Assembly (NCBI GenBank): GCA_009996555.1 | Contig: JAACZX010000455.1 | Coordinates: forward strand, 1-18,225 | Length of the DNA: 18,225 nucleotides | Reading direction: 5' to 3' | From: Chitinophagaceae bacterium | GTDB taxonomy: Bacteria > Bacteroidota > Bacteroidia > Chitinophagales > Chitinophagaceae | In this document: positions 1 through 18,225 of the stretch, piece after piece | Layout: each line of letters starts with the position of its first letter | How positions within the stretch are numbered: the first letter of the stretch is position 1 | The notes under the pieces: model-generated | Told to the model about the DNA's origin: nothing | Databases searched by the model: none | The model's input: only the letters and a program-made list of their open reading frames with translations | Program-made: the position numbers and the translations under genes

Positions 1-2093
1 AATTAACTGAATCTGTTTCAGGAACAGATCATTGTGTTCTTATAGCAACATTACCTGCATCAGCGCAGGAATTGGCTGCATCTTCCATATCATCACAAAT
101 ATTAACAGCTCTTGAAAATCGCATTACGAGAGTAGGAGCAAATATGAAACCGGTAGAAGATGATGAAATATTTGAGGTAGTAAGAAGACGATTGTTTGAA
201 GATTTAGGAAATGCTGATGAAATAGAAAAGATCATTTCGTCATATGCGCATCTTTATCAGTCTTTGTCCACCGAAATTCCAAACTATGCGCTAAAATCGG
301 AGTACAAAGAAAAATTAAAAAAATCATATCCCTTCCATCCCGAATTAATTGATATGTTCCGTCTGAGATGGGCCAGCAATCCATTCTTTCAACGTACCAG
401 AGGGGTGTTACGGATATTAGCTGCTATTGTATCTGATCTTTGGAAAAGGCAAACATCACTTGCCGGAAGTCATTTTCTTATTCATACGTCTGATGTTACA
501 TTGTCAAATGTAGAAGCGCTAACAAGTCAGATCACCATATTGAACGGTGCAAGTTGGGATTCTGTTATTAATGCTGATATATCAGGCACTTCCAATGCGT
601 TCCGCATTGACAATGAAGTAAAGGAGTTAGGGAAGCACAGTCTTACACAAGGGATTGCTGCAACAATACTATTAGGAACGTTTGGTTCAAAAGGTCAAAA
701 TAAAGGCGTAGGTATCGATGAAATAAAACTTTGTATGTTAAAGCCCGAAAGCTTTAATCATAATGATATTAATGGTGCTATCGACCGGATGGAGGGCCAT
801 GCCCATTATTTATATTATGGCAGTACTGGCCAAAAGAGATACTGGTTTGATACGACGCCGAACATCAATATCCTTATAAACCAGGCAAAAGGCGACATTA
901 AGAATCCCGATATTACTTCTGAAATTCTTAAAAGGGTTACTGATAAAACCAGGTTAATTAAGTCGTTTCATATTTTGGTGAATCCTTCTGAGGATATTCC
1001 AGAACAGTTAAAGCCCACATTGATTATTCTTAGCCCCAAGTACCTCGCATCTCCTAATGAAATCAACCCAAGCACAAAACCGATTATCGAAAAACTGGCT
1101 ACAAAAAAGGGTAATAGTGAACGCATTTACCGTAATACAATGCTCTTTCTAATCTGCACAGAAATGGGTATAGGTAAGTTGCAGGATGATATAAAAAACT
1201 TTCTTGCATGTAATAAAATTAGTTCTGAGTATAACACCCAATTAAACAATGAACAAAAATTAGATATTCGCAGAAGAATTGAGGATGCAGGAAAACAAGC
1301 TGATAACTCATTAGTGACGGCGTACTCGATCATAGCAAAATATTCTGCAAAAAATGGGATTGAAAGTTTAGTTGTAACTCAGTTTAAAGACAATCTGGAA
1401 AGTCAAATTAACAACAATATTCTCGGTGCATTGAAAGAGGAAGAGTGGCTGTTGGATTCTGTTGGGTTAGGCACACTAAAGACGAATAATCTTTTACCAT
1501 CAGCAAACCAATCGTTAAAAGCTAAAGATATTTATGAGGCATTTTTACGTTTCGATGATAAGCCGATGATTACCGGTTCTGATGCAATCTCTGAAAGTTT
1601 GAAGAAATACTGTTACAATGGAGAGTATTGTATTGCAACTGGAGATGGAACAAATTTTACTAATTACTTTTTTAAAAAGGATGTACATTTCTTTGATGTA
1701 AATGATCCTACATACTGGCTCATTGATAAAAGTTTGATGCCTGCTCCTGCTCTTAATACGACTCAACCAACCAATGAGATGGGTCAAAATTCAACCAACC
1801 CTCAACAAGAAGTGAATGATCCGGGAGAAGCACTTACTCCAGATAAAAAAGACGATGACATCTCAGCCAGAAAAATTAAATCAATAACGGTAAAAGGAAA
1901 AATCAGCGATAAGTTACTCTTCACCCAGTTAGGAAATTATTTTATTGTCCCTTTTAAAGACAATAATATTGAAATCGAAATATCGTTTAAAATTTCTTCA
2001 ACCCCTAATATGCAGATTGATGAAAGTAAGCAACAGTATAAATCTGCAAAAGAAGCTGCGAAGCAATTAGGTCTGAATTTTGACGAAGAATAA
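1..2093 (+). CDS. DUF499-family AAA+-like ATPase, C-terminal part (5' truncated)
   Basis: The frame is open from base 3 to the TAA at 2091-2093, so about 696 residues are visible and the start lies outside the window. It begins with a hydrophobic strand ending in TLPAS, then the block PVEDDEIFEVVRRRLFE, then YPFHPELIDMFRLRW followed by FFQRTRGVLRILAA. These are landmarks I recognise from DUF499 proteins, large (about 1000-residue) P-loop ATPases. Walker A and B should lie upstream and cannot be seen. A polar linker near residues 575-615, rich in N, Q, D and K, precedes a short C-terminal beta-rich segment. DUF499 proteins are commonly encoded beside DUF1156 DNA methylases and helicases in anti-phage defence loci, so a defence role is likely, with partners expected to the left. 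Family assignment is fairly firm; the role is inference from family and position. Confidence 0.85.
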   Translation, partial: LTESVSGTDHCVLIATLPASAQELAASSISSQILTALENRITRVGANMKPVEDDEIFEVVRRRLFEDLGNADEIEKIISSYAHLYQSLSTEIPNYALKSEYKEKLKKSYPFHPELIDMFRLRWASNPFFQRTRGVLRILAAIVSDLWKRQTSLAGSHFLIHTSDVTLSNVEALTSQITILNGASWDSVINADISGTSNAFRIDNEVKELGKHSLTQGIAATILLGTFGSKGQNKGVGIDEIKLCMLKPESFNHNDINGAIDRMEGHAHYLYYGSTGQKRYWFDTTPNINILINQAKGDIKNPDITSEILKRVTDKTRLIKSFHILVNPSEDIPEQLKPTLIILSPKYLASPNEINPSTKPIIEKLATKKGNSERIYRNTMLFLICTEMGIGKLQDDIKNFLACNKISSEYNTQLNNEQKLDIRRRIEDAGKQADNSLVTAYSIIAKYSAKNGIESLVVTQFKDNLESQINNNILGALKEEEWLLDSVGLGTLKTNNLLPSANQSLKAKDIYEAFLRFDDKPMITGSDAISESLKKYCYNGEYCIATGDGTNFTNYFFKKDVHFFDVNDPTYWLIDKSLMPAPALNTTQPTNEMGQNSTNPQQEVNDPGEALTPDKKDDDISARKIKSITVKGKISDKLLFTQLGNYFIVPFKDNNIEIEISFKISSTPNMQIDESKQQYKSAKEAAKQLGLNFDEE

Positions 2094-2103
2094 AATTTAA
2101 CAA

Positions 2104-2304
2104 ATGAATCTTGAAGAACGCAAAAAATATTATAAGGTACTACTCGCTCCATCAATGTCACTTGAGGAAAAAATGGACGAATTATATGATTTACCGGATG
2201 AAGATTTGACTGTTCTTTTGGGCCAGTTTGAAGTTGATGAGGATTATGAAATTTGTCAGGCAATAAAAGCAGTATTGGACGACAGGAAGTCGAATTCAAA
2301 TTAA
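2104..2304 (+). CDS. Small acidic protein downstream of DUF499 ATPase, unknown function
   Basis: This 66-residue ORF starts with ATG ten bases after the stop of the DUF499 gene and ends with TAA at 2302-2304. It is acidic (about 17 Asp/Glu against 8 Lys/Arg) and looks wholly alpha-helical, with an opening charged helix (NLEERKKYY) and a middle stretch LEEKMDELYDLPDEDL. It has no signal peptide or membrane segment, so it is probably cytoplasmic. The tight spacing suggests co-transcription with the ATPase. I do not recognise the family. It could be an accessory or regulatory subunit of the defence locus, but nothing in the sequence proves this. The overlapping minus-strand ORF (1937-2362) spans two plus-strand genes and looks like a shadow. 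Confidence 0.6.
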   Translation: MNLEERKKYYKVLLAPSMSLEEKMDELYDLPDEDLTVLLGQFEVDEDYEICQAIKAVLDDRKSNSN

Positions 2305-2615: not shown

Positions 2616-2895
2616 TACCAATATTATCCTACTACAAATACAGGCCAGAGAAACAAAAATTAAGCATGTTATAAACGATATTTTTATTGACTTGTCAAAC
2701 TATAAATTGAATGTTATTATCGTTGAAAATGTTTCATTTTTTGAAGATGGTTTACAATGAATAGTTGTTTCAATCGTTATCTTTACAGACCTCTTAGTTT
2801 GAAGGCAAATTAGTATGCTGGTGAACTGTGGGGTGACCTACAAGTTCTTGAGGGATAAAATGATTTGATTTTCACTTGATTATAACGGGAGTTAC

Positions 2896-2912
2896 AGTCC
2901 CGTCCGGTCCGC
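2896..2912 (+). other. Candidate attachment site: 3' fragment of a tRNA-Asp gene
   Basis: AGTCCCGTCCGGTCCGC reads as the end of a tRNA: last T-loop bases, the 3' strand of the T stem (CCCGT, 2899-2903), the 3' strand of the acceptor stem (CCGGTCC, 2904-2910) and discriminator G at 2911. Acceptor GGACCGG/CCGGTCC with G73 and a GAGTCCCGTCCG-like T arm fits tRNA-Asp as I know it. The rest of the tRNA is absent: upstream sequence does not form D, anticodon or 5' acceptor arms. It is followed directly by a strong terminator, as after a real tRNA gene. This is the arrangement of the distal att copy after integration into a tRNA 3' end, with the element to the left. The core lies in a short inverted repeat, CGGGA (2887-2891) and TCCCG (2898-2902). 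Confidence 0.6.
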
Positions 2913-2950
2913 AAAAAGCTTCGGTTAAAAACCGGAGCTTTTTTGTTTTC
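2913..2950 (+). terminator. Strong intrinsic terminator, probably of the original tRNA-Asp gene
   Basis: A 14-bp stem pairs 2913-2926 with 2930-2943, with one G-T wobble and a three-base AAA loop. The central part is GCTTCGG against CCGGAGC. The 3' arm merges into a T-rich run (TTTTTTGTTTT, 2939-2949). It directly abuts the tRNA-Asp 3' fragment, so it likely ended the tRNA transcript before the element came in. Confidence 0.85.
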
Positions 2951-3200
2951 AAACAGATGAGTTTGTAATGCAGTTACCAACGATCCCAGACAGACTGCCT
3001 CTTTCTTGTTTGCATTAGTACAGAATAAGCGTATAACCGCACTCCGGCACCTCTTTCATCCATATCATTTCACAGGAAACTGCTCATTGGCAAAAGGGCC
3101 AGTTTCTGCATCCTGTTTGTTTTACGTAGTTGTGTGTCCTGAAAATGGCAATACTTGGAAAAGGTGGCTGAAACATGACTGTATAATGGGCTGTTATAGG
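2951..3200. other. Intergenic stretch with no supported gene
   Basis: A 67-codon plus-strand frame (3006-3209) and a minus-strand frame (3070-3597) cross here. Both have poor coding character and no neighbour support. I see no RNA gene or repeat. Confidence 0.4.
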
Positions 3201-3390: not shown

Positions 3391-3401
3391 GCGTAGCCGA
3401 C

Positions 3402-3753: not shown

Positions 3754-4341
3754 ATGAGCACAGATGTGATAAATGCCACTAATCAGCACGAAAAATTCAC
3801 CTGCCGGCCCTTGGATTATGATAATTCTATTTTTGTTGATAAAGATGGCAAGCCTTATATCGTAATCAAAAACGGCAGAAAGTAAATCGCATACAGGCAT
3901 TGGGAATAAACGACATCTAACCGACACCGTTATTAACCTTGATTGGGCTAATGTTAAGTTGCAATACAGCCGGACCGAAGCTCTCGTAATGTGCAATCGC
4001 AATGGGTACTACTATTATTTTCCTTTGGGAGATGTGTCTGACGGACAATCAGGTCAAACTTCAAACAACCTATCATGAATTGAAATTACAGATAGCCAAC
4101 AAAGAATGGTGCAATTGAACTATTGCTTGATGATTTAACAACGTGCAAACTGATTGAACTATTCCTGTAATAGCAACAGGTAATCAAGATGTATGGAAGA
4201 TATTTTGAAAGTCATTAAAAAAACATTTCAGGTAAACATGATCTGTTTATAAAATTTCCCAATAATAATCAGCATGAATTTTTATCAAATCAATCATATT
4301 TGCCCGAAGATGATCCTTCTCACACAAGTAGAAGAATTTGA
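3754..4341 (+). pseudogene. Decayed gene of unknown function, several frameshifts
   Basis: Coding-like pieces follow one another in changing frames. An ATG at 3754 opens 43 codons ending at 3885, including FVDKDGKPYIVIKNGRK. The next frame (3866-4078) carries TVINLDWANVKLQYSR and NGYYYYFPLGDVS. A third frame reads about 4047-4118 (KLQIANKEW). A fourth (4105-4170) gives NGAIELLLDDLTTCKLIEL, a fifth (4161-4208) IPVIATGNQDVWKIF, and a sixth (4231-4341) DLFIKFPNNNQHEFLSNQSY. Each segment is protein-like and takes over where the previous one stops, as expected for one gene with accumulated indels. I do not recognise the family; the intact ancestor would have been about 190 residues or more. Chance open frames cannot be fully excluded. 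Confidence 0.45.
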
Positions 4342-4890: not shown

Positions 4891-7800
4891 ATGAGAACAG
4901 TATCAACCAATCTATCACTGCTTATGTTCTTTTTCTGTATGATGTGTTTTTCTGCTGCTTTTTCGCAGGGAACAATCTCCATTAAAGGAACCGTTACGGA
5001 CGAATCAGGTAGTCCATTATCTGGTGTCAGTATTAATGTAAAAGGGTCTTCTACAAACGCCCTTACAACAACACAAGGAACCTACACAATTTCCACCAGC
5101 GACAAAAAAGCTGTACTGGTTTTTTCATTTGTAGGATTAGCAACACAGGAAATTACAGTAGGCAACAAAACAACCATTAATGTAAGTATGGTTGCTGCCT
5201 CAAAACAAATGGATGAGGTGGTAGTAACTGCATTGAACATGAAAAGAAATGCAAAAAGCCTCGGTTATTCTGTTGCAACAATTGATGGCAGTGCTGTAAA
5301 CACAGTACAAACGCCCAGCATTGTGAGTGCCCTCTCCGGTAAAGTTGCCGGTGTTGATGTGAGCAATATTGCCAACGGTGTGGCAGGCACAAAACGGATC
5401 ATTATTCGTGGTGCATCTTCGCTTACAGGTAACAACCAGCCTCTTTGGGTTGTGGATGGTGTGCCTATTAACTCAGGAACATTGGGCGGCATGGCCTCTA
5501 ATGCACCTGAAGGCGGGGTTGACTATGGTGATGGTTTGGGCATTATTAATCCGGATGATATTGAAACCATCAGTGTACTGAAGGGGAATGCAGCGGCAGC
5601 ATTGTATGGATCGCTTGCTTCTAATGGTGTAATTCTTGTTACTACAAAGAGCGGAAAGTCTAGCAAGGGAAGAACAAATGTTGATTTCAGTTCTTCATTA
5701 ATGATCGACAAGCTTGTAAACCCAACCGATTTTCAATATGTATATGGTCAGAGTGGTTTAGGCGATCAGCCTCCGCAAACACCCAATGAAGCATTCAGCT
5801 CTTCAAGCTGGGGTGCAAAGTTTGATGGCAGTCCGTCAATGCAGTTTGATGGCGTGATCAGACCTTTCAGTCCTGTAAGAAATAACTATGAAAAGTTTTT
5901 TAATACAGGAAGTACCATTACCAATACGGTTTCACTATCAGGAAGCAATGAAAAACACAATTACAGAATTTCTCTTTCTGATCTTCGCAATGCAGATATA
6001 GTTCCGAATGCGAAATACAACCGTACAATTGTTAATACAAAAACTTCATCAAAATTCGGCAAGCTCACTGTTGATCTTGTTCTGAACTACAATTTTGAAA
6101 AAGCAAATAACCGTCCATTCATTGGCGGTAACGTTTCCAATCTTTTCTATTCACTTGTGTACATGCCCGGAAGTATTGATGTAGACAATCTGAAACCTGG
6201 TTATAATCCAGACGGATCAGAGTTTAGTTATGCAAACAGCATTTCAAATCCCTGGTATGTGGTGAATAAAGTAAAACAGTTTGATACGAAACACCGTACA
6301 ATGGGATCGCTGTCTCTTCAATACGACATTACAAATTGGTTGTATGCAAGAGGAAGAGTTACCCGTGACTTTTACAACTCTTACAGACAACGTTATACAC
6401 CAGAGGGTAACCAGTTCACCAGCTACCCGCTTGGTCAGTTTGAAGAAAGAGCTATTCAAAGTGTTGTAGAAAACTATGAATTTATATTGGGGCTTAAACC
6501 CGTAAACATGGGCAGGTTCAGTGTAAATGCATTTGCCGGTCTTAACAGGCTCGACAGGTCAAGAGATGAAGTGAATACTTCTGGTAACAGCTTTATTGTT
6601 CCCGGTATCTATACGTTCAACAATCTTGCAACAAAGTTACCTGTAACAACAAGAAGCCTTCAACGTACCAATTCAGTGTTTGGAAGTATGGAGTTGGCTT
6701 ATAATAAATATCTCTTCCTAACGCTTACCGGCCGTAACGACTGGTTCTCTACATTACCATTAGAGAATAACAACCTGTTTTACCCGGCGGCTTCGCTTTC
6801 GTTCGTGTTCTCTGATGCGTTTAAACTCCCTGCATTTATCTCGTATGGTAAAGTAAGAGCTTCAACTGCACAGGTAAGCGGAGATACCGATCCATACCAG
6901 CTTGATCTTAGTTATTCATTAACACAGGTAAGCTATGGCAATCTTCCGTTGCAATATGTTGGAACAACTAATATCCCTAATAAATTATTGAAGCCACTTC
7001 TTTCAACTGATTATGAATTTGGTTTGGATATGGAGTTCTTCAACCGTCGTTTAGGATTTGATTTCAGCTACTACGACAGACAAACAAAAGATGACATTGT
7101 TAGAACGGCGGTTTCATACAGCACAGGTTACCGTACTGCTATTTTAAATGTGGGCCGTTTAAGAAACAAGGGTGTTGAACTCCTGTTGCGTGCAACTCCA
7201 GTAAGAACAAAGAATTTTACATGGAACTCTACATTTACTTTCTCGTATAACGACAATAAAGTAATTGCATTAGGCGATGGTGCAGGTGGCGAACAAGGTC
7301 CTCCCATTCTCCTGGCTACAGCAAAAAGTGGTGAAGCAATTATTCAGTTAGAAGAAGGAAAAAGATACGGAAGTATCTATGGCTATAAGTTTGTAAGAGG
7401 TGCTAATGGCGATATTATGTATGACAGCCGTGGCTATCCAATGTACACAACAAAGAACGAGTACTTAGGCAACGGTGTGTTTGATAAACTGTTTGGCTTC
7501 AGCAATACATTCCAGTACAAAGGGTTTTCGTTTTACACTTTGCTTGATGCTAAGTTCGGCGCATCTATCTATTCTGAAACAAACTCAATTGCTTACGAAA
7601 ACGGACGTCATAAAGCAACGCTTCTTGGAAGAGAAGATGGTTTGATTGGCGAAGGTGTTGATCAAAATGGCAACAAGAATACTGTTCTTGTTGCAGGAAA
7701 AAATACAGTAAACCCTGCTCCGGGTAGCGGATCTATTTCAGGCTACTATCAGCAATTAGGAAATATTGCAGAGCACTTTATGTATGATGCAAGCTTTATC

Positions 7801-8031
7801 AAGTTGCGTGAAATTTCACTGGGTTACAGAATTCCGCAACGTTTCTTGAGTAAGATGGGGCTTGTAAGCGGTTCTGTTTCAGTGGTAGCAAGGAACCTTG
7901 CAATACTGTACAGCAATACAGAGAACGTAGATCCTGAAAGCAGCGTATCAAGCGGAAATGCACAGGGTATTGAACGCCTTGTATATCCTGTAACACGCAA
8001 CTTTGGATTGACCATCAAATTAGGACTTTAA
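4891..8031 (+). CDS. SusC/RagA-family TonB-dependent outer-membrane transporter
   Basis: The protein has 1046 residues, normal for SusC. A signal peptide (about residues 1-25) ends in AAFSQ. Then come a carboxypeptidase-regulatory-like beta domain (about 28-115, with GTVTDESGSPLSGVSINVKG), a TonB-box-like segment (MDEVVVTA), a plug domain (about 115-240) and a 22-strand barrel to the end. The SusC hallmark is at about residue 220: NPDDIETISVLKG followed by AAALYGSLASNGVILVTTK. It would import a ligand across the outer membrane using TonB energy, with the SusD-like lipoprotein encoded next acting as its lid. There is no extra N-terminal extension for an anti-sigma partner, so control by a sigma/anti-sigma relay is not indicated. 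Substrate is unknown; the downstream phosphatases suggest a phosphorylated compound or glycan. Confidence 0.95.
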   Translation: MRTVSTNLSLLMFFFCMMCFSAAFSQGTISIKGTVTDESGSPLSGVSINVKGSSTNALTTTQGTYTISTSDKKAVLVFSFVGLATQEITVGNKTTINVSMVAASKQMDEVVVTALNMKRNAKSLGYSVATIDGSAVNTVQTPSIVSALSGKVAGVDVSNIANGVAGTKRIIIRGASSLTGNNQPLWVVDGVPINSGTLGGMASNAPEGGVDYGDGLGIINPDDIETISVLKGNAAAALYGSLASNGVILVTTKSGKSSKGRTNVDFSSSLMIDKLVNPTDFQYVYGQSGLGDQPPQTPNEAFSSSSWGAKFDGSPSMQFDGVIRPFSPVRNNYEKFFNTGSTITNTVSLSGSNEKHNYRISLSDLRNADIVPNAKYNRTIVNTKTSSKFGKLTVDLVLNYNFEKANNRPFIGGNVSNLFYSLVYMPGSIDVDNLKPGYNPDGSEFSYANSISNPWYVVNKVKQFDTKHRTMGSLSLQYDITNWLYARGRVTRDFYNSYRQRYTPEGNQFTSYPLGQFEERAIQSVVENYEFILGLKPVNMGRFSVNAFAGLNRLDRSRDEVNTSGNSFIVPGIYTFNNLATKLPVTTRSLQRTNSVFGSMELAYNKYLFLTLTGRNDWFSTLPLENNNLFYPAASLSFVFSDAFKLPAFISYGKVRASTAQVSGDTDPYQLDLSYSLTQVSYGNLPLQYVGTTNIPNKLLKPLLSTDYEFGLDMEFFNRRLGFDFSYYDRQTKDDIVRTAVSYSTGYRTAILNVGRLRNKGVELLLRATPVRTKNFTWNSTFTFSYNDNKVIALGDGAGGEQGPPILLATAKSGEAIIQLEEGKRYGSIYGYKFVRGANGDIMYDSRGYPMYTTKNEYLGNGVFDKLFGFSNTFQYKGFSFYTLLDAKFGASIYSETNSIAYENGRHKATLLGREDGLIGEGVDQNGNKNTVLVAGKNTVNPAPGSGSISGYYQQLGNIAEHFMYDASFIKLREISLGYRIPQRFLSKMGLVSGSVSVVARNLAILYSNTENVDPESSVSSGNAQGIERLVYPVTRNFGLTIKLGL

Positions 8032-8055
8032 ACAACAACAACTAAATCATTGTAT

Positions 8056-9612
8056 ATGAAAAATAGGCTCAATATCTTTTCGATGTGCCTGATCCTGATC
8101 ATAACGGGAACATTTGCATCCTGCGATAAAAGATTCAAGGAGATTAATACCAGTGTTGATTTTGTTTCAACACCGAATCTTGATTACATGCTGCCCAATA
8201 TTGAATTAACTATCCTGGATAATACATATTACTGCCTGGGTGATTTTGCAGCTGCTTATGTAATGCATGTAACAAACAGGAAGTCGTATGAATCTGTAAC
8301 AACACCGGGAGGATACCATGGTTACCATTTTGAGTGGACTTACCCGAATCCCTTCCGCAACGTGGTAGACTTTATTGAAAGAAGCAGCCAAGATCCCGAG
8401 CGCATTAACTACAAAAGCATGGGACGTATCATAAAAGTATATCTCGCACACCAGTTAACGGATTTGTATGGTGATGTTCCTTATTCTGAAGCTGCCAAAG
8501 GATATTCTGCACAGATTTACACTCCTAAATATGATAAACAGCAGGATATTTATAACGACATGTTTAAAGAATTGGAAGAAGCTGCCTTGGCATTTGATAA
8601 TGCAAAGATGAAACCTGTAACTTCTGACATTGTGTACAAAGGAGATATTGTGAAATGGAAAAAATTCGCATACAGTTTAATGTTACGTCTTGGTTTGCGA
8701 ATTATGAAAGCTGATGCTGTAAAAGGAAAGGCGATGATTGAAAAAGCAATTGCCGGCGGTGTATTCCAAAACAACGATGATAATTTTATGGTAAAATATC
8801 TGCCAAACTCTTCAACTGGCGGAACCACAAATCCAACGTCGAATGGACAACCACACATTTTCGTTCGTTACCCTGATAACTACAGGCTTACTGCTCCGTT
8901 CATTAACCAGTTAAAGAGCACACAAGATCCACGCCTGCCTGTATTTGCCATGTTGCCAGCTTCGAGAACAACTTATTCTGCCGGCAGTAAAGACACTGCT
9001 GTACAAAAAGGATGGCCTCCGTTTGGCGACAGAAGAATGGAATCGCCTTACGGCAGTATTCCTTCTGCAGAACGATTGATTTATTCTACTGCCAACAACG
9101 CAACGTTTGGAAGATATGATGCTCCTTACATTCACCTGAGCTATGCGCAAGTACAGTTTCAGTTGGCAGAATGTGTGGTGAGAGGCATCATTACATCAAG
9201 TACTACTGCACAAACGTATTATGAAAACGGAGTAAGGGCCGCAATGGATCAGTTAAAACACTACGGTTCAGAAGGGGTGATCTCTACAGCCAGGGTGAAC
9301 ACTTACATTGCTTATAACCCATACAATCCTGCAAATACTGAACAAGCGCTTGAGCTGATCAATACACAGTACTGGATCGAAACATTCTTTAACTGGTATG
9401 AGACATTTGCAAATTTGCGGAGAAGTGGTTATCCGAAACTCTATGAAAACCTTTTGCCATCATCAGTGCATCCTGCAAATCTGAATGCACAGATGCCAAG
9501 AAGATTGACTTATATGGCAGCTGAAATTGCTTCTAATCCAAACGTACAGGAAGTATTTCAACGCCAGGGGCCAGATGTAACTTCTACCAGAGTTTGGTGG
9601 GATAAACCATAA
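8056..9612 (+). CDS. SusD/RagB-family surface nutrient-binding lipoprotein (SusD-like_2 type)
   Basis: I choose the ATG at 8056, 24 bases after the SusC stop, over an in-frame TTG at 8050. The result is a 518-residue protein with a normal lipoprotein signal: hydrophobic core then FASC, with lipid-bearing Cys23. The mature start (CDKRFKEINTSVDFVSTP), the mid-region LTDLYGDVPYSEA and the C-terminal block QYWIETFFNWYETFANLRR followed by SGYPKL are typical of the SusD-like group that carries TPR-like helices. It should sit on the cell surface, bind the ligand and close over the SusC-like barrel. It is presumably in one transcript with the receptor. A strong terminator follows its stop, so its mRNA may end before the enzymes. 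Confidence 0.93.
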   Translation: MKNRLNIFSMCLILIITGTFASCDKRFKEINTSVDFVSTPNLDYMLPNIELTILDNTYYCLGDFAAAYVMHVTNRKSYESVTTPGGYHGYHFEWTYPNPFRNVVDFIERSSQDPERINYKSMGRIIKVYLAHQLTDLYGDVPYSEAAKGYSAQIYTPKYDKQQDIYNDMFKELEEAALAFDNAKMKPVTSDIVYKGDIVKWKKFAYSLMLRLGLRIMKADAVKGKAMIEKAIAGGVFQNNDDNFMVKYLPNSSTGGTTNPTSNGQPHIFVRYPDNYRLTAPFINQLKSTQDPRLPVFAMLPASRTTYSAGSKDTAVQKGWPPFGDRRMESPYGSIPSAERLIYSTANNATFGRYDAPYIHLSYAQVQFQLAECVVRGIITSSTTAQTYYENGVRAAMDQLKHYGSEGVISTARVNTYIAYNPYNPANTEQALELINTQYWIETFFNWYETFANLRRSGYPKLYENLLPSSVHPANLNAQMPRRLTYMAAEIASNPNVQEVFQRQGPDVTSTRVWWDKP

Positions 9613-9626
9613 TCAGTACTCATTCC

Positions 9627-9666
9627 AATAGTCTATACAGGCATGCCTGTATAGACTATTTTTTTA
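9627..9666 (+). terminator. Perfect-palindrome intrinsic terminator after SusD
   Basis: Bases 9627-9660 form a perfect 34-base palindrome (arms of 17 bases, core GGCATGCC). As RNA it would give a stem of about 15 bp with a CATG loop. A T run follows at once (to 9665). It begins 14 bases after the SusD stop, and the next gene starts only 9 bases after the T run, so it also sits where that gene's promoter or ribosome binding site would be. Confidence 0.9.
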
Positions 9667-9674
9667 TTTCAACC

Positions 9675-11498
9675 ATGATTCTTTTGACGTCATCTTTTTA
9701 TCCGTTTCGCATTTCTTATAAACATGTGCTGCAGGTATGCTGCATTGTTTTTTTGCCGTTTGTTTTAGTTGCTCAAAAACAAAACAACAGGCAACAAACT
9801 TTACCGGTAACAAAGCATTCGTACAACGATGATTCCACCAAAATACAATTTGCCATTATATCTGATTTATGGGGAGGCCTGCGCCCGGGTATTTTTGAAG
9901 ATGCAGTTGATAAGCTGCAATTACTGCAACCCCAGTTTGTGATCTCTGTAGGTGATCTGATTGATGGCAAATCTTATGATCCGCTGGAAATAAACCGTCA
10001 ATGGAATGTGTTTGATCAAGCAATCAAACCTTTGTCTATGCCTTTTTATTATGTACCAGGTAATCATGACATTGGTAATGCAGTAATGGAAAACGAATGG
10101 AAGAAAAGATTAGGATCGCCTTATTATCATTTTGTGTACAGGAACGCATTGTTTCTTTGCATCAATACAGAAGATGGTGGTAAAGGAGGCATTCGTGATG
10201 AACAGGTTGCCTATTTCAAAAAAGCAATTGCCGATAATGCTGATGTTCGCTGGACATTCCTGTTTATGCATCGCCCTGTTTGGCAGGGAAAAGAAGATCG
10301 GCAGGAAGGTTACGAAAAGATTGAAGCGATGTTAAAAGACCGTAAGTATACACTGTTCTCCGGTCATCATCACACGTATCTTGGCGTAACAAAAAACGGT
10401 AACAGACATTATGTACTGGGCTCTACAGGAGGCGGCAGCGATCTGCGTGGTGAAAAGTTTGGAGAATTTGACCATGTAACATGGGTAACGCTAACAAATG
10501 ACACACCCAAGATTGTTAACTTAAAACTCGAAGGCATAATAAAGGATGATGTTGTGAATGAACAAACGCATCCTCTTACCCAAACACTCATCAATGAACA
10601 ATGGTTGATCCCTGTACCATTCGTTGCTGAAAAACAATTTGAACAAAAGATTACAGCAACAATTGAATTTAGTAACCCAACTAACTATCCGCTAAAAATT
10701 TCTGGCAATACAAGTAAGCATGTGAAGGGCTATAAGATCAGCCCTGAAACAATTGAGCTGGTAATAGCTCCAAAAAGTAAGCAACAGCAACAGGTTATTA
10801 TTACAAAAGCTGATCAGTCCTTTATCGACATGAAGTCGTTGACAGAAATTGAGATAGAACTAACAGGAGAATATACACGAAACAACATTACGTATGCCCT
10901 GCCGGCAAAAAAGAAGTTGTTGCTGAGTTGGAAACTAGTAGCTGAAAAGTTAAAGGAACAGAATGGGAATATGCCCAACCTTTTTCATGGCAGAGATACG
11001 GCCGGGATGATTTATGTTACAGCTCCGGAACAGCTGAACGGGCCCTGGTATTGGTCTGGTGCCACAGATGGACTGCTGCGATTTAAATTATCATACGATA
11101 ACAAGTTTGCTTATTTCGTGATTGTTGCAAGTGATAATGAATGGATGAATGAAACAGCTATTGTAAAAGATATGATATACTTGCACGTTGAAGATGGTAA
11201 CGGCAAAGAAAACCGGATCAGTTTTTCACCATGGGATATCGCAAAGGTGGAAGGTGCCGGCAGTGTTACAGGAAAAGATATTGAATCACGAAAAATCTTT
11301 GCTGACAACATCTTATTCATGGAATTAAAAATTCCACTGAATAAAATACAGAAAGCAGATCATTCAATACGCATGAATATTGGCTTTCGTGACTATGACA
11401 GAACACCTGAGAAATGGGTGTCAACATTATTCTGGAAACCGGAATGGAACAGTTCAGGTAACTATCAATTTTCAGGAACATTTATAATTAACAGATAG
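9675..11498 (+). CDS. Secreted metallophosphoesterase with C-terminal CBM9-like domain
   Basis: The protein has 607 residues. The N-terminus is longer than a plain signal peptide: a polar stretch, then a hydrophobic core near residues 19-32 ending VLVAQ; a GTG at 9726 is a less likely start. The calcineurin-like phosphoesterase domain spans about 55-260: SDLW (63-66), GDLID (93-97), GNHD (129-132), His199 and GHHH (230-233). The first motif normally reads D-x-H, but here its His is Trp66. A central beta-sandwich (about 300-410) precedes a C-terminal domain (about 430-607) resembling family 9 carbohydrate-binding or DOMON-like modules (GPWYWSGATDGLLRFKLSYD; MNIGFRDYDRTPEKW). It likely dephosphorylates or cleaves a phosphodiester of a bound glycan in the periplasm or outside. 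The next gene begins after one base. Confidence 0.85.
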   Translation: MILLTSSFYPFRISYKHVLQVCCIVFLPFVLVAQKQNNRQQTLPVTKHSYNDDSTKIQFAIISDLWGGLRPGIFEDAVDKLQLLQPQFVISVGDLIDGKSYDPLEINRQWNVFDQAIKPLSMPFYYVPGNHDIGNAVMENEWKKRLGSPYYHFVYRNALFLCINTEDGGKGGIRDEQVAYFKKAIADNADVRWTFLFMHRPVWQGKEDRQEGYEKIEAMLKDRKYTLFSGHHHTYLGVTKNGNRHYVLGSTGGGSDLRGEKFGEFDHVTWVTLTNDTPKIVNLKLEGIIKDDVVNEQTHPLTQTLINEQWLIPVPFVAEKQFEQKITATIEFSNPTNYPLKISGNTSKHVKGYKISPETIELVIAPKSKQQQQVIITKADQSFIDMKSLTEIEIELTGEYTRNNITYALPAKKKLLLSWKLVAEKLKEQNGNMPNLFHGRDTAGMIYVTAPEQLNGPWYWSGATDGLLRFKLSYDNKFAYFVIVASDNEWMNETAIVKDMIYLHVEDGNGKENRISFSPWDIAKVEGAGSVTGKDIESRKIFADNILFMELKIPLNKIQKADHSIRMNIGFRDYDRTPEKWVSTLFWKPEWNSSGNYQFSGTFIINR

Positions 11499-11499
11499 C

Positions 11500-13080
11500 A
11501 TGAAAAAAGTAGTCTTGTTGAGTCTTTTATTGTTTTTATTTTTTTGTGATGCAATGTCTCAAACCACTACGCCACGCAGAGATGCGGGCAGGTATGGTAT
11601 CAGGCCCATATTAATACGGGGGCCTTACCTGCAGGTGGCAACACCCACCAGTATGATTGTGCGCTGGCGTACAGATATGCTGGATGTAAGTTTTGTTCGC
11701 TATGGAACTGAGCCGGGCAAGTTAGATAAACTCGCTGGTCATGACTTCCGTACCAACGAACATATTGTTACCATCAATGGTCTCACACCCGATACAAAAT
11801 ATTATTACATGATTGAAGGGTTTAAAGACACATTGCAGGGTGATGCAAATAATTATTTCACCACCTTGCCATTGCAAGGAAAAGAAGCGAAGTACAGGAT
11901 TGGTGTGTATGGTGATTGTGGAAGTATTTCTGCAAGGCAAGGAAATGCCAGAGATCAGTTTGAAAAATATCTTGGCAACAATGTTCTCAATGCATGGATT
12001 TTATTAGGTGACAATGCGTATTCATTTGGAAAGGACGTAGAGTACCAAAGTCATTTTTTTAATATTTACAAAGACAACTTGTTGAAGAAATCGCCGTTGT
12101 TTCCTTCGCCCGGCAATCACGATTACCAGGATGAGCCTTATGCAGCAGAAGTAGCACAGCGTTCAGGTGAGGTGGCTTATTATCAGAATTTTTCGATGCC
12201 TACGAAAGGAGAATCGGGCGGACTTGCATCACATACATCGGCCTTCTATTCATTTGACATCGGCAACGTTCACTTTATTTCACTTGACTCACATGGATCG
12301 CAGGAAAACGGGAAACGTTTGTTTGATACAACCAGCACAGAAGTGCAATGGGTAAAACGTGATCTTGAAGCAAATAAAAATAAAGGATGGGTTGTTGCTT
12401 ACTGGCATCATCCGCCGTATTCAATGGGTTCGCATAATTCCGACACAGAAACACAAATGGTGAAGATCAGGGAAAACTTTGTACCTATTCTTGAGCGATA
12501 TGGTGTTGACCTGATCTTATGTGGTCACAGTCATTCTTACGAACGCTCAAAATTAATGCAGGGACATTATGGGATGGAAGCAAGTTTTTCTGAAACAAAA
12601 CATTTACTCAGCACGTCATCTGGTTTTTATGATGGGTCAGCTAATTCCTGTCCATACATAAAAGATGCAACAGGAAAAGGTACTGTTTATGTAGTAAGCG
12701 GATCATCAAGCCGTACTGATCATAAGCAGGCAACATTTCCACATGATGCACTGCCATTTTCAAATGTGGATTATGCAGGTGCCTGTATTCTTGAAGTGGA
12801 AGGCAATCGTCTTGATCTGAAATGGATTTGTGAAGATGGACAGATCAGGGACCGGTTTACCATGATGAAAAATGTACAACAAAAAACGATTGTAAAAGCA
12901 AAGAAAGGACAGACTGTTACATTAACCGCTTCTTATGTTGGTGAATATAGCTGGAAAGGCTCAACGAAAAAAACACGCAGCATTGAAGTAAAACCTTCTG
13001 CAGGTGTTTCAACTTATATTGTAAATGATCCGCAAAACTGCATACAACAGGAATTTGAAGTGCAGGTTTCAGGAAATTAA
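11500..13080 (+). CDS. Purple-acid-phosphatase-like metallophosphoesterase, copy 1
   Basis: The protein has 526 residues and a signal peptide of about 20. A fibronectin-type-III-like purple acid phosphatase N-terminal domain (about 35-125) includes IRGPYLQVATPTSMIVRWRT. The catalytic domain carries all five metal-binding motifs in order: GDCG (138-141), GDNAY (170-174, with the Tyr that ligates Fe(III) in purple acid phosphatases), GNHD (205-208), His303 in AYWHHPPYS, and GHSHSYER (342-349). A short C-terminal beta domain (about 450-526) has the look of a PKD/Ig-like module; no type IX sorting tail follows. It should hydrolyse phosphate monoesters outside the cytoplasm. The ATG lies one base after the previous stop, implying coupled translation. 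It is a close paralogue of the next gene. Confidence 0.9.
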   Translation: MKKVVLLSLLLFLFFCDAMSQTTTPRRDAGRYGIRPILIRGPYLQVATPTSMIVRWRTDMLDVSFVRYGTEPGKLDKLAGHDFRTNEHIVTINGLTPDTKYYYMIEGFKDTLQGDANNYFTTLPLQGKEAKYRIGVYGDCGSISARQGNARDQFEKYLGNNVLNAWILLGDNAYSFGKDVEYQSHFFNIYKDNLLKKSPLFPSPGNHDYQDEPYAAEVAQRSGEVAYYQNFSMPTKGESGGLASHTSAFYSFDIGNVHFISLDSHGSQENGKRLFDTTSTEVQWVKRDLEANKNKGWVVAYWHHPPYSMGSHNSDTETQMVKIRENFVPILERYGVDLILCGHSHSYERSKLMQGHYGMEASFSETKHLLSTSSGFYDGSANSCPYIKDATGKGTVYVVSGSSSRTDHKQATFPHDALPFSNVDYAGACILEVEGNRLDLKWICEDGQIRDRFTMMKNVQQKTIVKAKKGQTVTLTASYVGEYSWKGSTKKTRSIEVKPSAGVSTYIVNDPQNCIQQEFEVQVSGN

Positions 13081-13087
13081 TGATCGT

Positions 13088-14683
13088 ATGATGAACAGAT
13101 TTTTTGCTTTGGTTTTATTGTCAGGAATATTGTTGCCTTCAGCAATTCATTCACAAAACACAAGCCCTGCACCTGCAAAAGGCCAGGAGAAATTTACCAA
13201 TAAGCCTAAACTTATTCGTGGCCCTTATTTGCAGGTGGCAACTGACACCAGTATGGTGATCAGATGGCGGACGGATGCGTTATCAAGAAGCAGGGTGCGG
13301 TATGGTTATGCTGTCAATAATCTTGATAAGACTGTTGACAACATTTCTTTATCAACTGAACACGAAATGAAACTTACAGGGTTAAAGCCCGGAACAAAAT
13401 ATTATTATTCCATTGGCACATTGAAAGACACACTTCAGTATGGAGCCGATAATTATTTCTCCACGTTTCCGGCAAAGGGGAAAGAAGGTGCATACAAGAT
13501 TGGTGTGTTCGGCGATTGTGGTTACCTGTCAGTTAACCAGGCCAATGTCCGTGATCAGTTTATCAAATACCTCGGTAATAATGATCTGAATGCATGGATA
13601 TTGCTGGGAGATAATGCCTATAACGATGGGAATGATATGGAGTACCAGGCAAAGTTCTTTACACCATACAAAGACATTCTCTTAAAAAAATATCCTGTAT
13701 TTCCTTCTCCCGGAAATCATGATTATCATGATGCTGATTTTACTGCCAACTATGCACAGAAAACACATGAAGTGCCGTATTACCAGAATTTTTCCATGCC
13801 TGTGAGTGGTGAAGCTGGGGGTGTGCCTTCAGGCAACCCTGCTTTTTATTCGTTTGATCTCGGGAATATTCATTTCATTTCTCTTGATTCATACGGCATG
13901 GAAGAAAGCAAGTATTTTTTATGGGATACTATGGGGCCACAGGTACAGTGGCTGAAAAAAGATCTGGCTGCAAACCGTAACAAAGGATGGGTGGTTGCTT
14001 ACTGGCATTATCCTCCTTATTCAAAAGGAACTCATGACTCTGATGAAGATGGTATTATGACAGGTGTTAGAGAAAACCTGTTGCGGATATTTGAACGGTA
14101 TGAAGTGGATCTTATTATTTGCGGGCATAGTCATGTATATGAACGTTCAAAAATGATGACGGGGCATTATGGAAAATCAGAAAGTTTTGATGCTGCAAAG
14201 CATAATGTGAGCAACAGTTCCGGTTTGTACAATGGTTCAACAAACAGTGCGCCTTATATTAAAGAGTCAGGTGCAGAAAAGGGAATGGTGTACATTGTTT
14301 CCGGATCATCAGCTTATGTTGGTAAAAGTTACCCCGACTGGCCGCACCGTGCAATGTATTATTCAAATGATAAGGATGCAGGTGCAGGTATACTTGAAGT
14401 GAATGAAAACAGGCTTGACTTTAAATGGATCTGTGCCGATGGTGTGATACGGGATCAATTTACGATGATGAAGAACGTGAATAAAAAAACAGTTATTCGC
14501 AGTAAGAAAGGAGAGAAGATTACATTGACAGCTTCATTTGTTGTGGATGCCTACAAGTGGGATAAAACAAAAGAGACCAACCGGAGCATAGAAGTAACTC
14601 CTCCTGTGGGCAAAACAAAATATATTGTGAAGGATGTGTTTAATAACCTGCAAGATGTATTTGAAGTGATTGTTACAAAATAA
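13088..14683 (+). CDS. Purple-acid-phosphatase-like metallophosphoesterase, copy 2
   Basis: I place the start at ATG 13088, seven bases after the previous stop. An upstream in-frame ATG at 13025 would overlap the previous gene and add 21 non-signal residues. From 13088 a standard signal peptide (ALVLLSGILLPSAIHSQ) follows. At 531 residues the layout matches copy 1: N-terminal FnIII-like domain, then GDCGY (142-146), GDNAY (174-178), GNHD (209-212), His307 in AYWHYPPYS, and GHSHVYER (346-353), then a small beta-rich end domain. The two proteins share long blocks (for example NKGWVVAYWH), so this is a tandem duplication that has diverged in loops around the active site. Different substrate preference is plausible but not shown. 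Confidence 0.9.
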   Translation: MMNRFFALVLLSGILLPSAIHSQNTSPAPAKGQEKFTNKPKLIRGPYLQVATDTSMVIRWRTDALSRSRVRYGYAVNNLDKTVDNISLSTEHEMKLTGLKPGTKYYYSIGTLKDTLQYGADNYFSTFPAKGKEGAYKIGVFGDCGYLSVNQANVRDQFIKYLGNNDLNAWILLGDNAYNDGNDMEYQAKFFTPYKDILLKKYPVFPSPGNHDYHDADFTANYAQKTHEVPYYQNFSMPVSGEAGGVPSGNPAFYSFDLGNIHFISLDSYGMEESKYFLWDTMGPQVQWLKKDLAANRNKGWVVAYWHYPPYSKGTHDSDEDGIMTGVRENLLRIFERYEVDLIICGHSHVYERSKMMTGHYGKSESFDAAKHNVSNSSGLYNGSTNSAPYIKESGAEKGMVYIVSGSSAYVGKSYPDWPHRAMYYSNDKDAGAGILEVNENRLDFKWICADGVIRDQFTMMKNVNKKTVIRSKKGEKITLTASFVVDAYKWDKTKETNRSIEVTPPVGKTKYIVKDVFNNLQDVFEVIVTK

Positions 14684-14692
14684 ACAGTGCGG

Positions 14693-16513
14693 ATGAAAAA
14701 GTGTTTGATCGTTTTATCAATATGCAGTGTTGTGCTTTTTTTAAGCATGTCGCCACGCATGCGTGATGGAAGATACAGAGGAGTGGAGCAAACACTGGAC
14801 TATTTCAGGGTGAATGCTTCCTCTTTTGCTGAAAGCACGGCTGATCTTCAGCAAAGCATCAAACAGCTTGATAAAAACAATCCTGCATCTGTTGATAAAG
14901 CAATCACTTCTTTGAAAGAATGCAGGCTCCGCTTTAAGAACATTGAGTTCTTCTTCAATTATTTCTTTCGCAGTCTTTCTGTTATTTATAATGCTCCTGC
15001 AGTAGTAGAGGTGGAAGAACCTTTTTTGGAATACAGGGAGCCGATTGGTTTGCAGGTGATTGCTTCATTGCTGTTTGCAGATGATCCCTTTGCAGAAAAA
15101 GAACAATTAGTTGCACAAGCTTCATTGGTATATGAAGCGGCAGGTGATCTTCATGCGTTGCTTTACCAGCTACCCGTTACGGATGAACAGGTATTGGAGA
15201 GTATTCAATTGGAATTAATTAATGTGATGACGCTGGGCATTGCAGGATTTGATACACCTGAGTTAAAAACAGGTATTTCTGAATCCAAACAAACATTACT
15301 TGCACTTCAGGAAGTATTGCAGCCATTTCTTACCAGCAGCAAGGAATCTGACAGTGTGCGTTTTTACATGAACGCCGCAATTGAGTTCATCCATAAAAAT
15401 GAATCGTTTGATGTATTTGACAGACTTGGTTTTTTAACCGGGGCTGCATTGCCGTTACAGGAATGTTTACGTTACTTCATTCGCAAAGAAGGTCTTGAAT
15501 TAAATACCACCGGTGTATTGAATTATAAAACAGTCAATATTTTTCGTCCCGGTGCAATCGATATTAATCACACCCTTGAGGTTGATTCGGCTATGGCTGC
15601 TTTAGGCAAAACATTGTTTTTTGAAAAAGCATTATCTGGCAACCGTACAAGAAGTTGTGCAACCTGTCACCAGCCGGAGAAATATTTTACTGACGGACTT
15701 GTTAAAAGTATTGCACTTGATGGCCATTCAACAGTTCAGCGAAATTCACCCACCTTACTCTATGCTGCTTTTCAGTATTCCCAGTTTTGGGATGGGCGAG
15801 TGAAGCATTTGGAAGAACAAATAAAGGATGTGTTGCAAAATCCTGTTGAAATGAATGCAGATCATCAGCAGATCATTACTTACCTGAAGACAGATAAACA
15901 TTACGCTGCTAAGTTTGACCAGCTGTTTGGGAATACACAAAAAGACAGTACAATCAGCATTGCAAATGTAGCTTCATCAATTGCTGCGTTTATTAAAACA
16001 CTGGCTCCTTTTCAATCGCCTTTTGATCGTTATATGAATGGCGATAAAACAGCTTTAACAAAGGAGCAGGTAAATGGATTCAATTTGTTTATGGGAAAAG
16101 CTATGTGCGGCACATGTCACACTGCACCCATGTTTAATGGTCTTACTCCGCCGTTGTATGAACGAACTGTACTGGAAATTGTTGGCACAACAAACAGTAA
16201 TAATTTTACTGCACCTGCTTTATCTGCTGACAGTGGCCGTTATGCAACTTACCCGATTGACTTTTACATGGGAGCATTTAAAACGCCCGGTCTTCGAAAT
16301 GTAGCACATACAGCACCTTACATGCACAATGGTGCTCTTTCCACACTTGAAGATGTGCTTGTGTTTTATAACAAAGGTGGTGGACAGGGACTTGGTTTAC
16401 ATGTGCCCAATCAAACATTGTCGGGTGATTCTCTTCAACTTTCAACTGCAGAAATGGCCAATGTTATTTCTTTTCTGCATTCACTTTCTGATCCACAATA
16501 TTCTTTCCGTTAA
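14693..16513 (+). CDS. Di-haem cytochrome c peroxidase (MauG/CcpA type) with imelysin-like N-terminal region
   Basis: ATG 14693 is chosen over an in-frame GTG six bases earlier; it gives an N-terminal hydrophobic signal or anchor (KKCLIVLSICSVVLFL) and 606 residues. Residues about 30-290 are a helical region like that found in large Bacteroidota peroxidases of this type and distantly like imelysin. Residues about 305-600 are the di-haem peroxidase domain: haem site CATCH (322-326), then FWDGRVKHLEEQ and NPVEMN, haem site CGTCH (472-476), and a conserved end NVAHTAPYMHNGA. It would reduce hydrogen peroxide in the periplasm using cytochrome electrons, or oxidise a protein or small-molecule substrate as MauG does. 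The imelysin-style GxHxxE signature reads GLQVIA here (119-124), so any metal-binding role of that region is doubtful. It sits nine bases after the phosphatase and belongs to the same operon. Confidence 0.9.
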   Translation: MKKCLIVLSICSVVLFLSMSPRMRDGRYRGVEQTLDYFRVNASSFAESTADLQQSIKQLDKNNPASVDKAITSLKECRLRFKNIEFFFNYFFRSLSVIYNAPAVVEVEEPFLEYREPIGLQVIASLLFADDPFAEKEQLVAQASLVYEAAGDLHALLYQLPVTDEQVLESIQLELINVMTLGIAGFDTPELKTGISESKQTLLALQEVLQPFLTSSKESDSVRFYMNAAIEFIHKNESFDVFDRLGFLTGAALPLQECLRYFIRKEGLELNTTGVLNYKTVNIFRPGAIDINHTLEVDSAMAALGKTLFFEKALSGNRTRSCATCHQPEKYFTDGLVKSIALDGHSTVQRNSPTLLYAAFQYSQFWDGRVKHLEEQIKDVLQNPVEMNADHQQIITYLKTDKHYAAKFDQLFGNTQKDSTISIANVASSIAAFIKTLAPFQSPFDRYMNGDKTALTKEQVNGFNLFMGKAMCGTCHTAPMFNGLTPPLYERTVLEIVGTTNSNNFTAPALSADSGRYATYPIDFYMGAFKTPGLRNVAHTAPYMHNGALSTLEDVLVFYNKGGGQGLGLHVPNQTLSGDSLQLSTAEMANVISFLHSLSDPQYSFR

Positions 16514-16634
16514 CACTAACGTTAAGCGGATTGGTTCTTCATTGGCTCATTTTGACAAAAAAGTATAGGAACTTAACAGATAAGCGGAACTATGCTAACG
16601 GGCAGAACTTTATTTTAGCATATAATATTTCACT
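16514..16634. promoter_or_regulatory. Intergenic gap before the glycosidase, with direct repeat TAAGCGGA
   Basis: This is the only gap over 25 bases between the enzyme genes. TAAGCGGA occurs at 16523-16530 and 16581-16588. The sequence near 16609-16618 (TTTATTTTAG) is only a loose match to a Bacteroidota -7 element, and no -33 partner is clear. No strong terminator is visible. The glycosidase may have its own promoter or be transcribed from upstream. Confidence 0.3.
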
Positions 16635-18225
16635 ATGCTTAAACAGATTGCTTTCTTTTTTGCACTGACGTCATGCTTTGCAATTTCTGCACAGGATCTT
16701 AGCCGCAGTAAACCCGGTGCTCAGTCTTACCAGGAGCTACCCAATCCTGTTGCAACTGATCTTGCTGAATGGAAACGTGTGTCGAAAGATATTACAGTAA
16801 GCTATGCCAGCGACAATGTAAAATATCCAAAAGAAAAAGTGCCGGCCATTGCTGTAAAAACAAATTGGACTGCTACAGCATGGAAAGGAGAGAAAGTGCA
16901 TACACAACTGTTGTTATGGAGCAAAAAAGATATCGCAGCTGTCAGCTTTCAGTTATCTGATCTTGTGTCTGCAAATGGCAGTCGTATTGCAGCAAAAAAT
17001 CTGAAAGCAGCTTTTGTGCGTTATACCATGGCCGACAATTTTGTTGATGGTTGCTCTCAAAAATCATCCTCTGCTTACGATTCTTTCCTTGTAGCTGATC
17101 CGATCGATATTGTAAAAATATTACCCGTTGCAAAAAATACAGTGCAGCCTTTGTGGTTAAGTGTGGAAGTGCCCGGTAATGCAACAGCAGGTAAATACAA
17201 TGGCACCATCACCGTAAATGCAGAGAAAAAACATGTACTCAATATAACAGTTGAAGTAGTGAACCATGTATTACCTCCGGCTGCAGAATGGAAATATGAT
17301 TTTGATATCTGGCAATACCCGGCGCCCATCGCAAGAATGCACAATGTTCCTTTATGGAGCGATGAGCATTTCCGGTTAATGAAAGAGTATTTTACTTACC
17401 TGGCAAATGCGGGGCAGAAAGTAATTTCAGCAAACATTATTGAACAGCCGTGGGGATTGGATCATGTTCATTTTGATGACCCCACATTGATTAAATGGAT
17501 CAAAAAGAAAGACGGCAGCTGGCAATATGATTTTACCATGTTCGACCGCTACATTTCTTTTATGATGGAATGCGGTATAACACAACGCATCAATTGTTAT
17601 ACAATGATCACCTGGGATCTTGGGTTTATTTACTATGATGAAGCGTCAGGTAAAAACAAAACAGATACATTAAAGCCCGGCGCTGCAGAATACACCGCAT
17701 TCTGGAAACCAATGATCGAACAGTTTACTGCACATCTGAAACAGAAAGGATGGATTAGCAAAACAGCCATAGCTGTAGATGAACGCCCTGTGGAAAGTAT
17801 GCAGGCAATTATTGCATTATTAAAATCTGTTGATCCTTCCTGGCGCATTGCGTTGGCAGGTGATACCTACCACCCGGAAATAGAAGAAGATATTTATGAT
17901 TACTGTCTTGCCTCTTATCTTGACTTTGGTGAAGATGTACTGAAGAAAAGAAAAGCTGCCGGTAAGCCCACCACTTTTTATACGGCATGTGTGGAGCAGT
18001 ATCCCAATAGTTATACGGCGTCTCCACCTGCAGAAAATACATGGCTTGCATGGTATGCTGCAGCAAAAGGATTGACAGGATATTTATTCTGGGCTTACAA
18101 CACATGGGTTGCAGATCCATTGCTCGACAGCCGTTGGCGTCGCTATCCCGCAGGTGAACTTTTTCAGTTCTATCCCGGGCCAAGAACATCTATCAGGTTT
18201 GAAAAACTTCGGGAAGGCATACAGG
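16635..18225 (+). CDS. GH123/DUF4091-like glycoside hydrolase, secreted (3' truncated)
   Basis: An ATG at 16635 opens a frame that runs off the window; 530 residues are visible. A signal peptide ends near residue 20 (CFAISAQ). Residues about 25-210 form a beta-sandwich with LSVEVPGNATAGKYNGTITV, then a (beta/alpha)8-like catalytic region begins near 225. The C-terminal block WAYNTWVADPLLDSRWRRYP, followed shortly by FYPG and RTSIRFEKLREGIQ, is a strong match to the DUF4091/GH123 catalytic family. An adjacent acid pair, Asp382-Glu383 in AIAVDERP, fits the catalytic Asp-Glu pair known for GH123 beta-N-acetylgalactosaminidases, but specificity cannot be read from the sequence, and many DUF4091 proteins are uncharacterised. 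It would act on a glycan in the periplasm or outside, likely alongside the SusCD pair and phosphatases. It follows the peroxidase gene after 121 bases. Confidence 0.85.
   Translation, partial: MLKQIAFFFALTSCFAISAQDLSRSKPGAQSYQELPNPVATDLAEWKRVSKDITVSYASDNVKYPKEKVPAIAVKTNWTATAWKGEKVHTQLLLWSKKDIAAVSFQLSDLVSANGSRIAAKNLKAAFVRYTMADNFVDGCSQKSSSAYDSFLVADPIDIVKILPVAKNTVQPLWLSVEVPGNATAGKYNGTITVNAEKKHVLNITVEVVNHVLPPAAEWKYDFDIWQYPAPIARMHNVPLWSDEHFRLMKEYFTYLANAGQKVISANIIEQPWGLDHVHFDDPTLIKWIKKKDGSWQYDFTMFDRYISFMMECGITQRINCYTMITWDLGFIYYDEASGKNKTDTLKPGAAEYTAFWKPMIEQFTAHLKQKGWISKTAIAVDERPVESMQAIIALLKSVDPSWRIALAGDTYHPEIEEDIYDYCLASYLDFGEDVLKKRKAAGKPTTFYTACVEQYPNSYTASPPAENTWLAWYAAAKGLTGYLFWAYNTWVADPLLDSRWRRYPAGELFQFYPGPRTSIRFEKLREGIQ

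Follow-up and report, generated by a model that had tools for sequence, protein, structure and literature searches.

The 17 bases at positions 2896 to 2912 of the window, by which we mean the whole 18,225-nucleotide stretch analysed here, very probably form the attachment site at the right end (attR) of an integrated element of 19.9 kb that extends from C777:587 to window position 2895 and encodes the integrase Int2, with a second element, encoding the integrase IntB, apparently lying between the intact tRNA-Asp gene and the Int2 element. The window is the complete contig C444 of a metagenome-assembled genome (MAG) of a Chitinophagaceae bacterium (4.13 Mb in 801 contigs, 92.9% complete). The fragment itself (AGTCCCGTCCGGTCCGC, forward strand) corresponds to the 3' end of tRNA-Asp: CCGGTCC at 2904-2910 is the 3' acceptor strand, G2911 is the discriminator, and C2912 is the final base of the gene according to the ARAGORN call on contig C220, with the 13-nt core CCGTCCGGTCCGC at 2900-2912. 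Within the 4.13-Mb genome, the 17-mer has two exact occurrences, one in the window and one ending the intact tRNA-Asp(gtc) gene on C220, while an exact search with a reversed control pattern gave no match in the same genome. The strain's intact tRNA-Asp gene thus ends in the same bases (17/17), as the initial annotation had proposed when it read the fragment as a tRNA-Asp end with discriminator G and CCGGTCC; its further statement that the rest of the tRNA is lacking agrees with ARAGORN, which called no tRNA in the window. Rfam likewise gave no match at gathering scores there.

The fragment is directly followed by an intrinsic terminator (2913..2949, forward strand), whose hairpin at 2913-2943 has 14 pairs and a T tail (-16.5 kcal/mol, z -4.9; as good in 0 of 200 shuffles), so that its earlier description as a strong terminator joined to the fragment holds. 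It resembles the terminator directly 3' of the intact tRNA-Asp gene in the congeneric genome G013 at 34 of 38 positions; weaker likeness was observed in G007 (22/38), after an att copy in G011 (22/38), and in G001 (20/38). An empty site, in which tRNA-Asp is directly followed by this terminator, had been suggested as a check. In G013 the intact gene is indeed directly followed by the near-same terminator, but the further flank of the window is absent there.

The left end of the element lies on another contig. The first 33 bases of the window (1..33) are identical to the last 33 of C777 (17589-17621), and these are the only two occurrences in the genome. The overlap falls within hmaC, whose 3' part occupies window positions 1..2093 on the forward strand (frame 3-2093; Pfam DUF499, 2.5e-30; PADLOC HmaC, 5.6e-86) and whose 5' part is C777:16910-17621 (HmaC profile, 3.1e-58); joined across the 33 nt, they form one frame of 923 aa with no internal stop. 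Since the overlap joins the window to C777, the element spans 19.9 kb back to C777:570-586 (GGACCCGTCCGGTCCGC), a tRNA-Asp end with 2 of 17 bases changed. This copy equals the window copy at 15 of 17 bases, including the final 14 consecutive ones, and thus forms a direct repeat with it; 19,897 bases separate the two. After the C777 copy comes a terminator-like hairpin (recognized by eye) and then Int2, a tyrosine integrase of 454 aa with arm-binding, SAM-like, and catalytic domains, which starts 255 bases past the att copy. The GC content is 35.8% in the C777 part, 35.5% at window 1-2895, and 40.5% at window 4891-18225. The initial annotation had placed the distal attachment copy at the right edge of an element, and this attR reading is supported by the C777 att copy, Int2, and the arm sites described below. 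Its expectation that the intact tRNA would form the other end was wrong: that end is the att copy C777:570-586 with its own integrase. An intact tRNA-Asp with the same end and an adjacent integrase, which it had advised looking for, does exist on C220 beside IntB, but it is not the other end of this element.

Following Int2, the genes are arranged in the order AAA_25 ATPase, 91-aa ORF, 168-aa ORF, HmaA, AbiEi_2, 297-aa ORF, HmaB, NsnA, NsnB, NsnC, HmaC, and 66-aa ORF. Profile matches are strong for HmaA (4e-208), HmaB with DUF1156 (1.2e-131), NsnA (2.2e-112), NsnB (1.5e-107), and NsnC (1.3e-55). The genes hmaA, hmaB, and hmaC are thus all present, and a function in phage defence is predicted from these profiles. 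No family was assigned to the 91-aa and 168-aa ORFs, the 297-aa neighbour of the AbiEi_2 gene had no Pfam match, and the last ORF of the element (66 aa, 2104..2304, forward strand) matched nothing in Pfam, PADLOC, or PHROGs. On C777 (L136, 422-12620) the Hma genes are interleaved with the AbiEi-type gene and nsnA-nsnB-nsnC, an arrangement of nested defence genes. Our literature search found nothing on Nsn as a defence system. Among the 13 element ORFs, the Pfam scans (14 queries, hmaC in two pieces; 8 minus-strand ORFs overlapping larger genes and ORFs below 90 aa other than the 66-aa one set aside) revealed neither a relaxase or a conjugation or transfer family nor a capsid, terminase, or tail family, and PHROGs searches of five of the 13 returned integrase, primase/helicase-type, or unknown families only. 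A prophage or a conjugative element was considered as the class of the element and dropped, as the scans made contained no supporting family. At E≤1e-10 the DUF499 gene was found in one of the 14 genomes of the genus, our own, and no relative was therefore seen to carry it at this place without a tRNA nearby, a finding that would have spoken against the earlier interpretation.

The two ends of the element are also connected by putative arm-type sites. A site pair of the form GGTGAACT-N4-GGTGACCT lies at 2820..2839 of the window (forward strand), with GGTGAACT 80 and GGTGACCT 68 bases before the core, as is found after the att copy of Int2: behind the core on C777, GGTGACCT stands at +104 and +116 and AGGTCACC at +142. 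Corresponding sites lie at +103, +115, and +141 on L151 (JADGPW010000115.1), a contig of the Chitinophagaceae MAG Chersky_580, which encodes the one relative of Int2 that a scan of genome contigs returned (74% identity over residues 1-352, ending at the contig end). In about 1.03 Mb of compared loci, many of which overlap and which exclude four loci repeating the window, the spaced pair occurs at C777:690, at L151:9852, and in the window only. The statistical controls were mixed. A shared 9-mer of the plain kind arises in 711 of 1000 shuffles and a repeated shared 8-mer in 267 of 2000, neither being significant, the latter falling to 3 of 2000 when a minimum of 4 G or C bases is required; for the pair, shuffling within the window gave 3 of 200, with up to 2 mismatches allowed. 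Both the GC-rich test and the spaced-site tests were chosen after the sequences had been seen. As the plain k-mer tests are not significant, the case for Int2 rests on these later-chosen tests and, above all, on the contig overlap.

On C220, 334 bases separate the 3' end of the intact tRNA-Asp from the start of IntB, which is 37% identical to Int2 and belongs to the same family. Its arms have another sequence (GGTTARCAA): after the core on C220, GGTTAACAA stands at +103 and +115 and TTGCTAACC at +141, and on C777, GGTTAGCAA precedes the core by 79 and 67 bases. The geometry in common is as follows: at one end, two copies spaced by 12 bases lie about 103 and 115 bases in, with an inverted copy another 26 bases on; at the opposite end, two copies lie about 68 and 80 bases in. 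Three left and two right ends display this geometry, and an IntB-type element in the congeneric genome G009 fits in part: its attR has one arm copy instead of two, and at the IntB-side attL the C220 arm was not found within 2 mismatches. We tentatively propose, with less than even confidence, that the tRNA-Asp 3' end is a genus-wide dock at which IntB and Int2 have a core and an arm geometry in common and differ in arm sequence, the core permitting stacking and the arms blocking cross-excision.

According to the proposed mechanism, Int2 would have recombined at the 13-14 bp core (CCGTCCGGTCCGC) from the tRNA-Asp 3' end and would have carried the AAA_25 ATPase, the predicted Hma anti-phage system, NsnA/B/C, and the AbiEi-type gene as cargo. 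The IntB element would use the same core and sit between the intact tRNA-Asp and the Int2 element, so that C777:570-586 would serve both as attR of the former and as attL of the latter. The IntB arms before the core on C777 suggest that an IntB-type element has its right end at C777:570. C220 and C777, which the assembly did not join, may then be the two ends of one IntB element whose middle is unassembled; this pairing rests on a 15-base inverted match, with a shared 12-mer arising in 44 of 1000 shuffles. IntB and Int2 presumably made the junctions, and the element may still be able to excise. It appears likelier that Int2 entered at the tRNA first and was later displaced by IntB, because the Int2 relative in Chersky_580, a single case, adjoins an intact tRNA-Asp (with an ORF that is gfo-like, judged by likeness, on the other side). 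Alternatively, Int2 may have entered at the right copy of IntB; both orders give an identical structure. No examined genome has the right flank of the window fused to an intact tRNA-Asp.

The arrangement could in principle be simpler. A single element, with the intact tRNA-Asp and IntB on C220 as its left end and the window fragment as its right end, would account for the position of IntB 334 bases from the tRNA-Asp 3' end and for the identity of the two 17-mers, but the contig that overlaps the window contains a further att copy, accompanied by an integrase of its own, and the arms in the window are those of Int2, whereas those of IntB are at the C777 copy. On account of this att copy and the arm sites, a single element reaching from the tRNA and IntB to the window was rejected, and we regard it as very improbable. 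Equally small is the probability we assign to an assembly or binning artefact, in which C777 or C444 would come from another organism and the three copies would not lie in one chromosome. The MAG does consist of 801 contigs, neither HmaC nor SusD has a match within the genus at the thresholds applied, and the tRNA-Asp end is identical in another Chitinophagaceae MAG. Against this, the right part of the window has a tetranucleotide profile that shows correlations of 0.85-0.96 with stretches of five congeneric genomes, compared with 0.67-0.81 for two genomes of other genera and the Chersky MAG, and short stretches of the flank match congeners; even in the case of an artefact, the edge in the window would remain the attR of an Int2-type element. 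That the fragment arose by decay of a duplicated tRNA-Asp, or matches it by chance, with no tie to integration, is hardly credible. No tRNA body is present upstream and partial tRNA-Asp duplicates can arise, as in G013, yet the fragment shows 0 mismatches in 17 bases, has the terminator attached, and is accompanied by arm sites at set distances and, at the opposite end, by a partner copy that has an integrase, and the reversed control gave no match in the 14 genomes under exact matching.

With the Int2 element as the preferred reading, the sequence to the right of its attR can be considered separately. Here, decayed and accessory genes stand in place of the conserved block found beside tRNA-Asp in other genomes of the genus. 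The att copy and its right flank (2896..3056) match an att copy and flank in G009 (C1:1211021-1211182) at 69%. Window 3220-3566 resembles two sites in G001 (67-69%) and, over part of its length, a stretch of C312 in the own genome (68%), and is perhaps the remnant of an old repeat or insertion. It is followed by the remnant of a decayed glycoside-hydrolase-like gene (3810..4258, forward strand), whose relatives have open frames elsewhere in G003 and G006. We take this remnant to be of the GH43 type. The locus at 4891..18224 (forward strand), outside the element, encodes SusC- and SusD-type proteins, three metallophosphoesterases, a MauG-type peroxidase, and GH123. Purple-acid-phosphatase-like genes whose ORFs overlap lie in tandem at window 11500-14683, and a matching tandem pair exists in G057, a genome of another genus. 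For SusD, a threshold of E≤1e-60 gave matches in 4 of 39 genomes, the own one among them, and in none of the 13 congeners, and one phosphatase has matches in 12 of 79 family genomes, own included (one genome per genus, hence no congener). Because of the flank matches and the distribution of SusD and the phosphatase, the right locus is considered accessory and not the conserved neighbour of tRNA-Asp; as a native neighbour of that gene it is ruled out by the flank comparison. The border that had been drawn between the DUF499 region and a host-like nutrient locus is very probably a true element edge, but its right side is not what conservedly adjoins tRNA-Asp.

In this genus, the tRNA-Asp site is a hotspot for islands. 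The tRNA-Asp end is present at the tRNA in all 14 genomes, and a single exact 17-mer is found in 11 of them (at the tRNA gene, cut by the contig end in G008), against two in our own genome, G009, and G013. Allowing up to 2 mismatches gave five more copies (own C777, G008, G009, G011, and G012), which rest on their context because the reversed control equally gave five at that tolerance; a tblastn match to IntB or Int2 starts within 300 bases at all five. Altogether, 10 extra copies of the tRNA end were counted in 7 of the 14 genomes (own 2, G003 1, G008 1, G009 2, G011 1, G012 1, G013 2), among which the G003 copy and one G013 copy were found by flank search only, so that more diverged copies may have been missed elsewhere. 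Nine of the 10 have an exact 13-base core, and the four extra copies on the tRNA's own contig (G003, G011, and two in G013) have the same orientation as the tRNA. Stacking also occurs in G009, where a type-A integrase and an IntB relative (78%) flank the copy at C1:1254086 on opposite sides, with the next att copy 42.9 kb beyond. The G013 copy 372 bases from the tRNA retains part of the tRNA body, and this 372-base unit between two tRNA-Asp ends (L047, 2132-2578), with its partial tRNA-Asp body, is a possible mini-element; the ORF in it is presumably GIY-YIG-like. Type-A islands, in which an integrase about 25% identical to Int2 lies directly inside the extra att copy, were observed in G011 (L127), G009 (L128), G012 (L129), and G008 (L130). 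In G011, that integrase is at the tRNA-distal end, 118 kb away, with the tRNA on the same contig. In another G009 locus (L081, 16371-18259), Septu-type PtuB and PtuA lie directly inside the att copy at C1:1211166, which is the position of Hma in the window.

The conserved block beside tRNA-Asp consists of three genes, which we take to be DUF3467-like, Ldh2-like, and lysC. The tRNA immediately precedes this block in G001, and an att copy does so in G011. At E≤1e-150, lysC was found in 12 of the 14 genomes, and not in our own MAG or in G005. Where tRNA and lysC are on the same contig in the usual orientation (n=6), their distance is 1.8 kb in G001, 2.5 kb in G007, 3.4 kb in G006, 120 kb in G011, 240 kb in G003, and 243 kb in G013; in G004, G008, G009, and G012, lysC is on a contig other than that of the tRNA. 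In two genomes (G010:C4:478052-490508 and G002:C44:97275-116144), tRNA-Asp is inverted between lysC and gfo. A further 120-140 kb separate the distal att copy from lysC in G003 (C1:1606560-1747867) and G013 (C1:2749875-2871072), which may reflect older islands or rearrangement. Our literature search found no paper on this tRNA-Asp hotspot.

Comparable arrangements have been described. The available part of PMC5704250 reports tandem accretion of ICEs, IMEs, and islands at a tRNA 3' end with strongly different integrases and chimeric att sites. The present case is alike in its diverged tyrosine integrases with a common target, its chimeric att site, and a target gene that remains whole, and it differs from what that part describes in the use of tRNA-Asp, the Chitinophagaceae host, the anti-phage cargo, and the lack of a relaxase or transfer family among the ORFs scanned. 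The same part of PMC5704250 lists NBU1, NBU2, MTnPi4, and Tn6031 at the 3' ends of tRNA-Leu, tRNA-Ser, tRNA-Leu, and tRNA-Pro, respectively. These, too, belong to Bacteroidota and combine a tyrosine integrase with a tRNA 3' end, but they use other tRNA genes than the tRNA-Asp element, and NBU1 and NBU2 encode MobP relaxases (PMC5704250), none of which was seen among the element ORFs scanned here. Hma was named in PMC8565338, and the accessible text of PMC12839542 treats it as DUF499-centred BREX-related systems. As far as these two sources could be consulted, the element agrees with them in its HmaA helicase, HmaB DUF1156 methylase, and HmaC DUF499 ATPase, all strong profile matches, whereas here the AbiEi-type gene and its neighbour separate hmaA from hmaB, and nsnA-nsnB-nsnC separate hmaB from hmaC.

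A predicted Hma anti-phage system now has a vehicle with both ends mapped. Element stacking is a known route of genome growth, and it is met here in an environmental bacterium: one Chitinophagaceae genus stacks unlike islands at one tRNA-Asp, with the tRNA-lysC distance ranging from 1.8 kb to 243 kb. Specialists might care most about the common arm geometry with different arm sequences, which, if our reading of it is true, would provide naturally occurring material for tests of how integrases can use a common site and yet avoid cross-excision.
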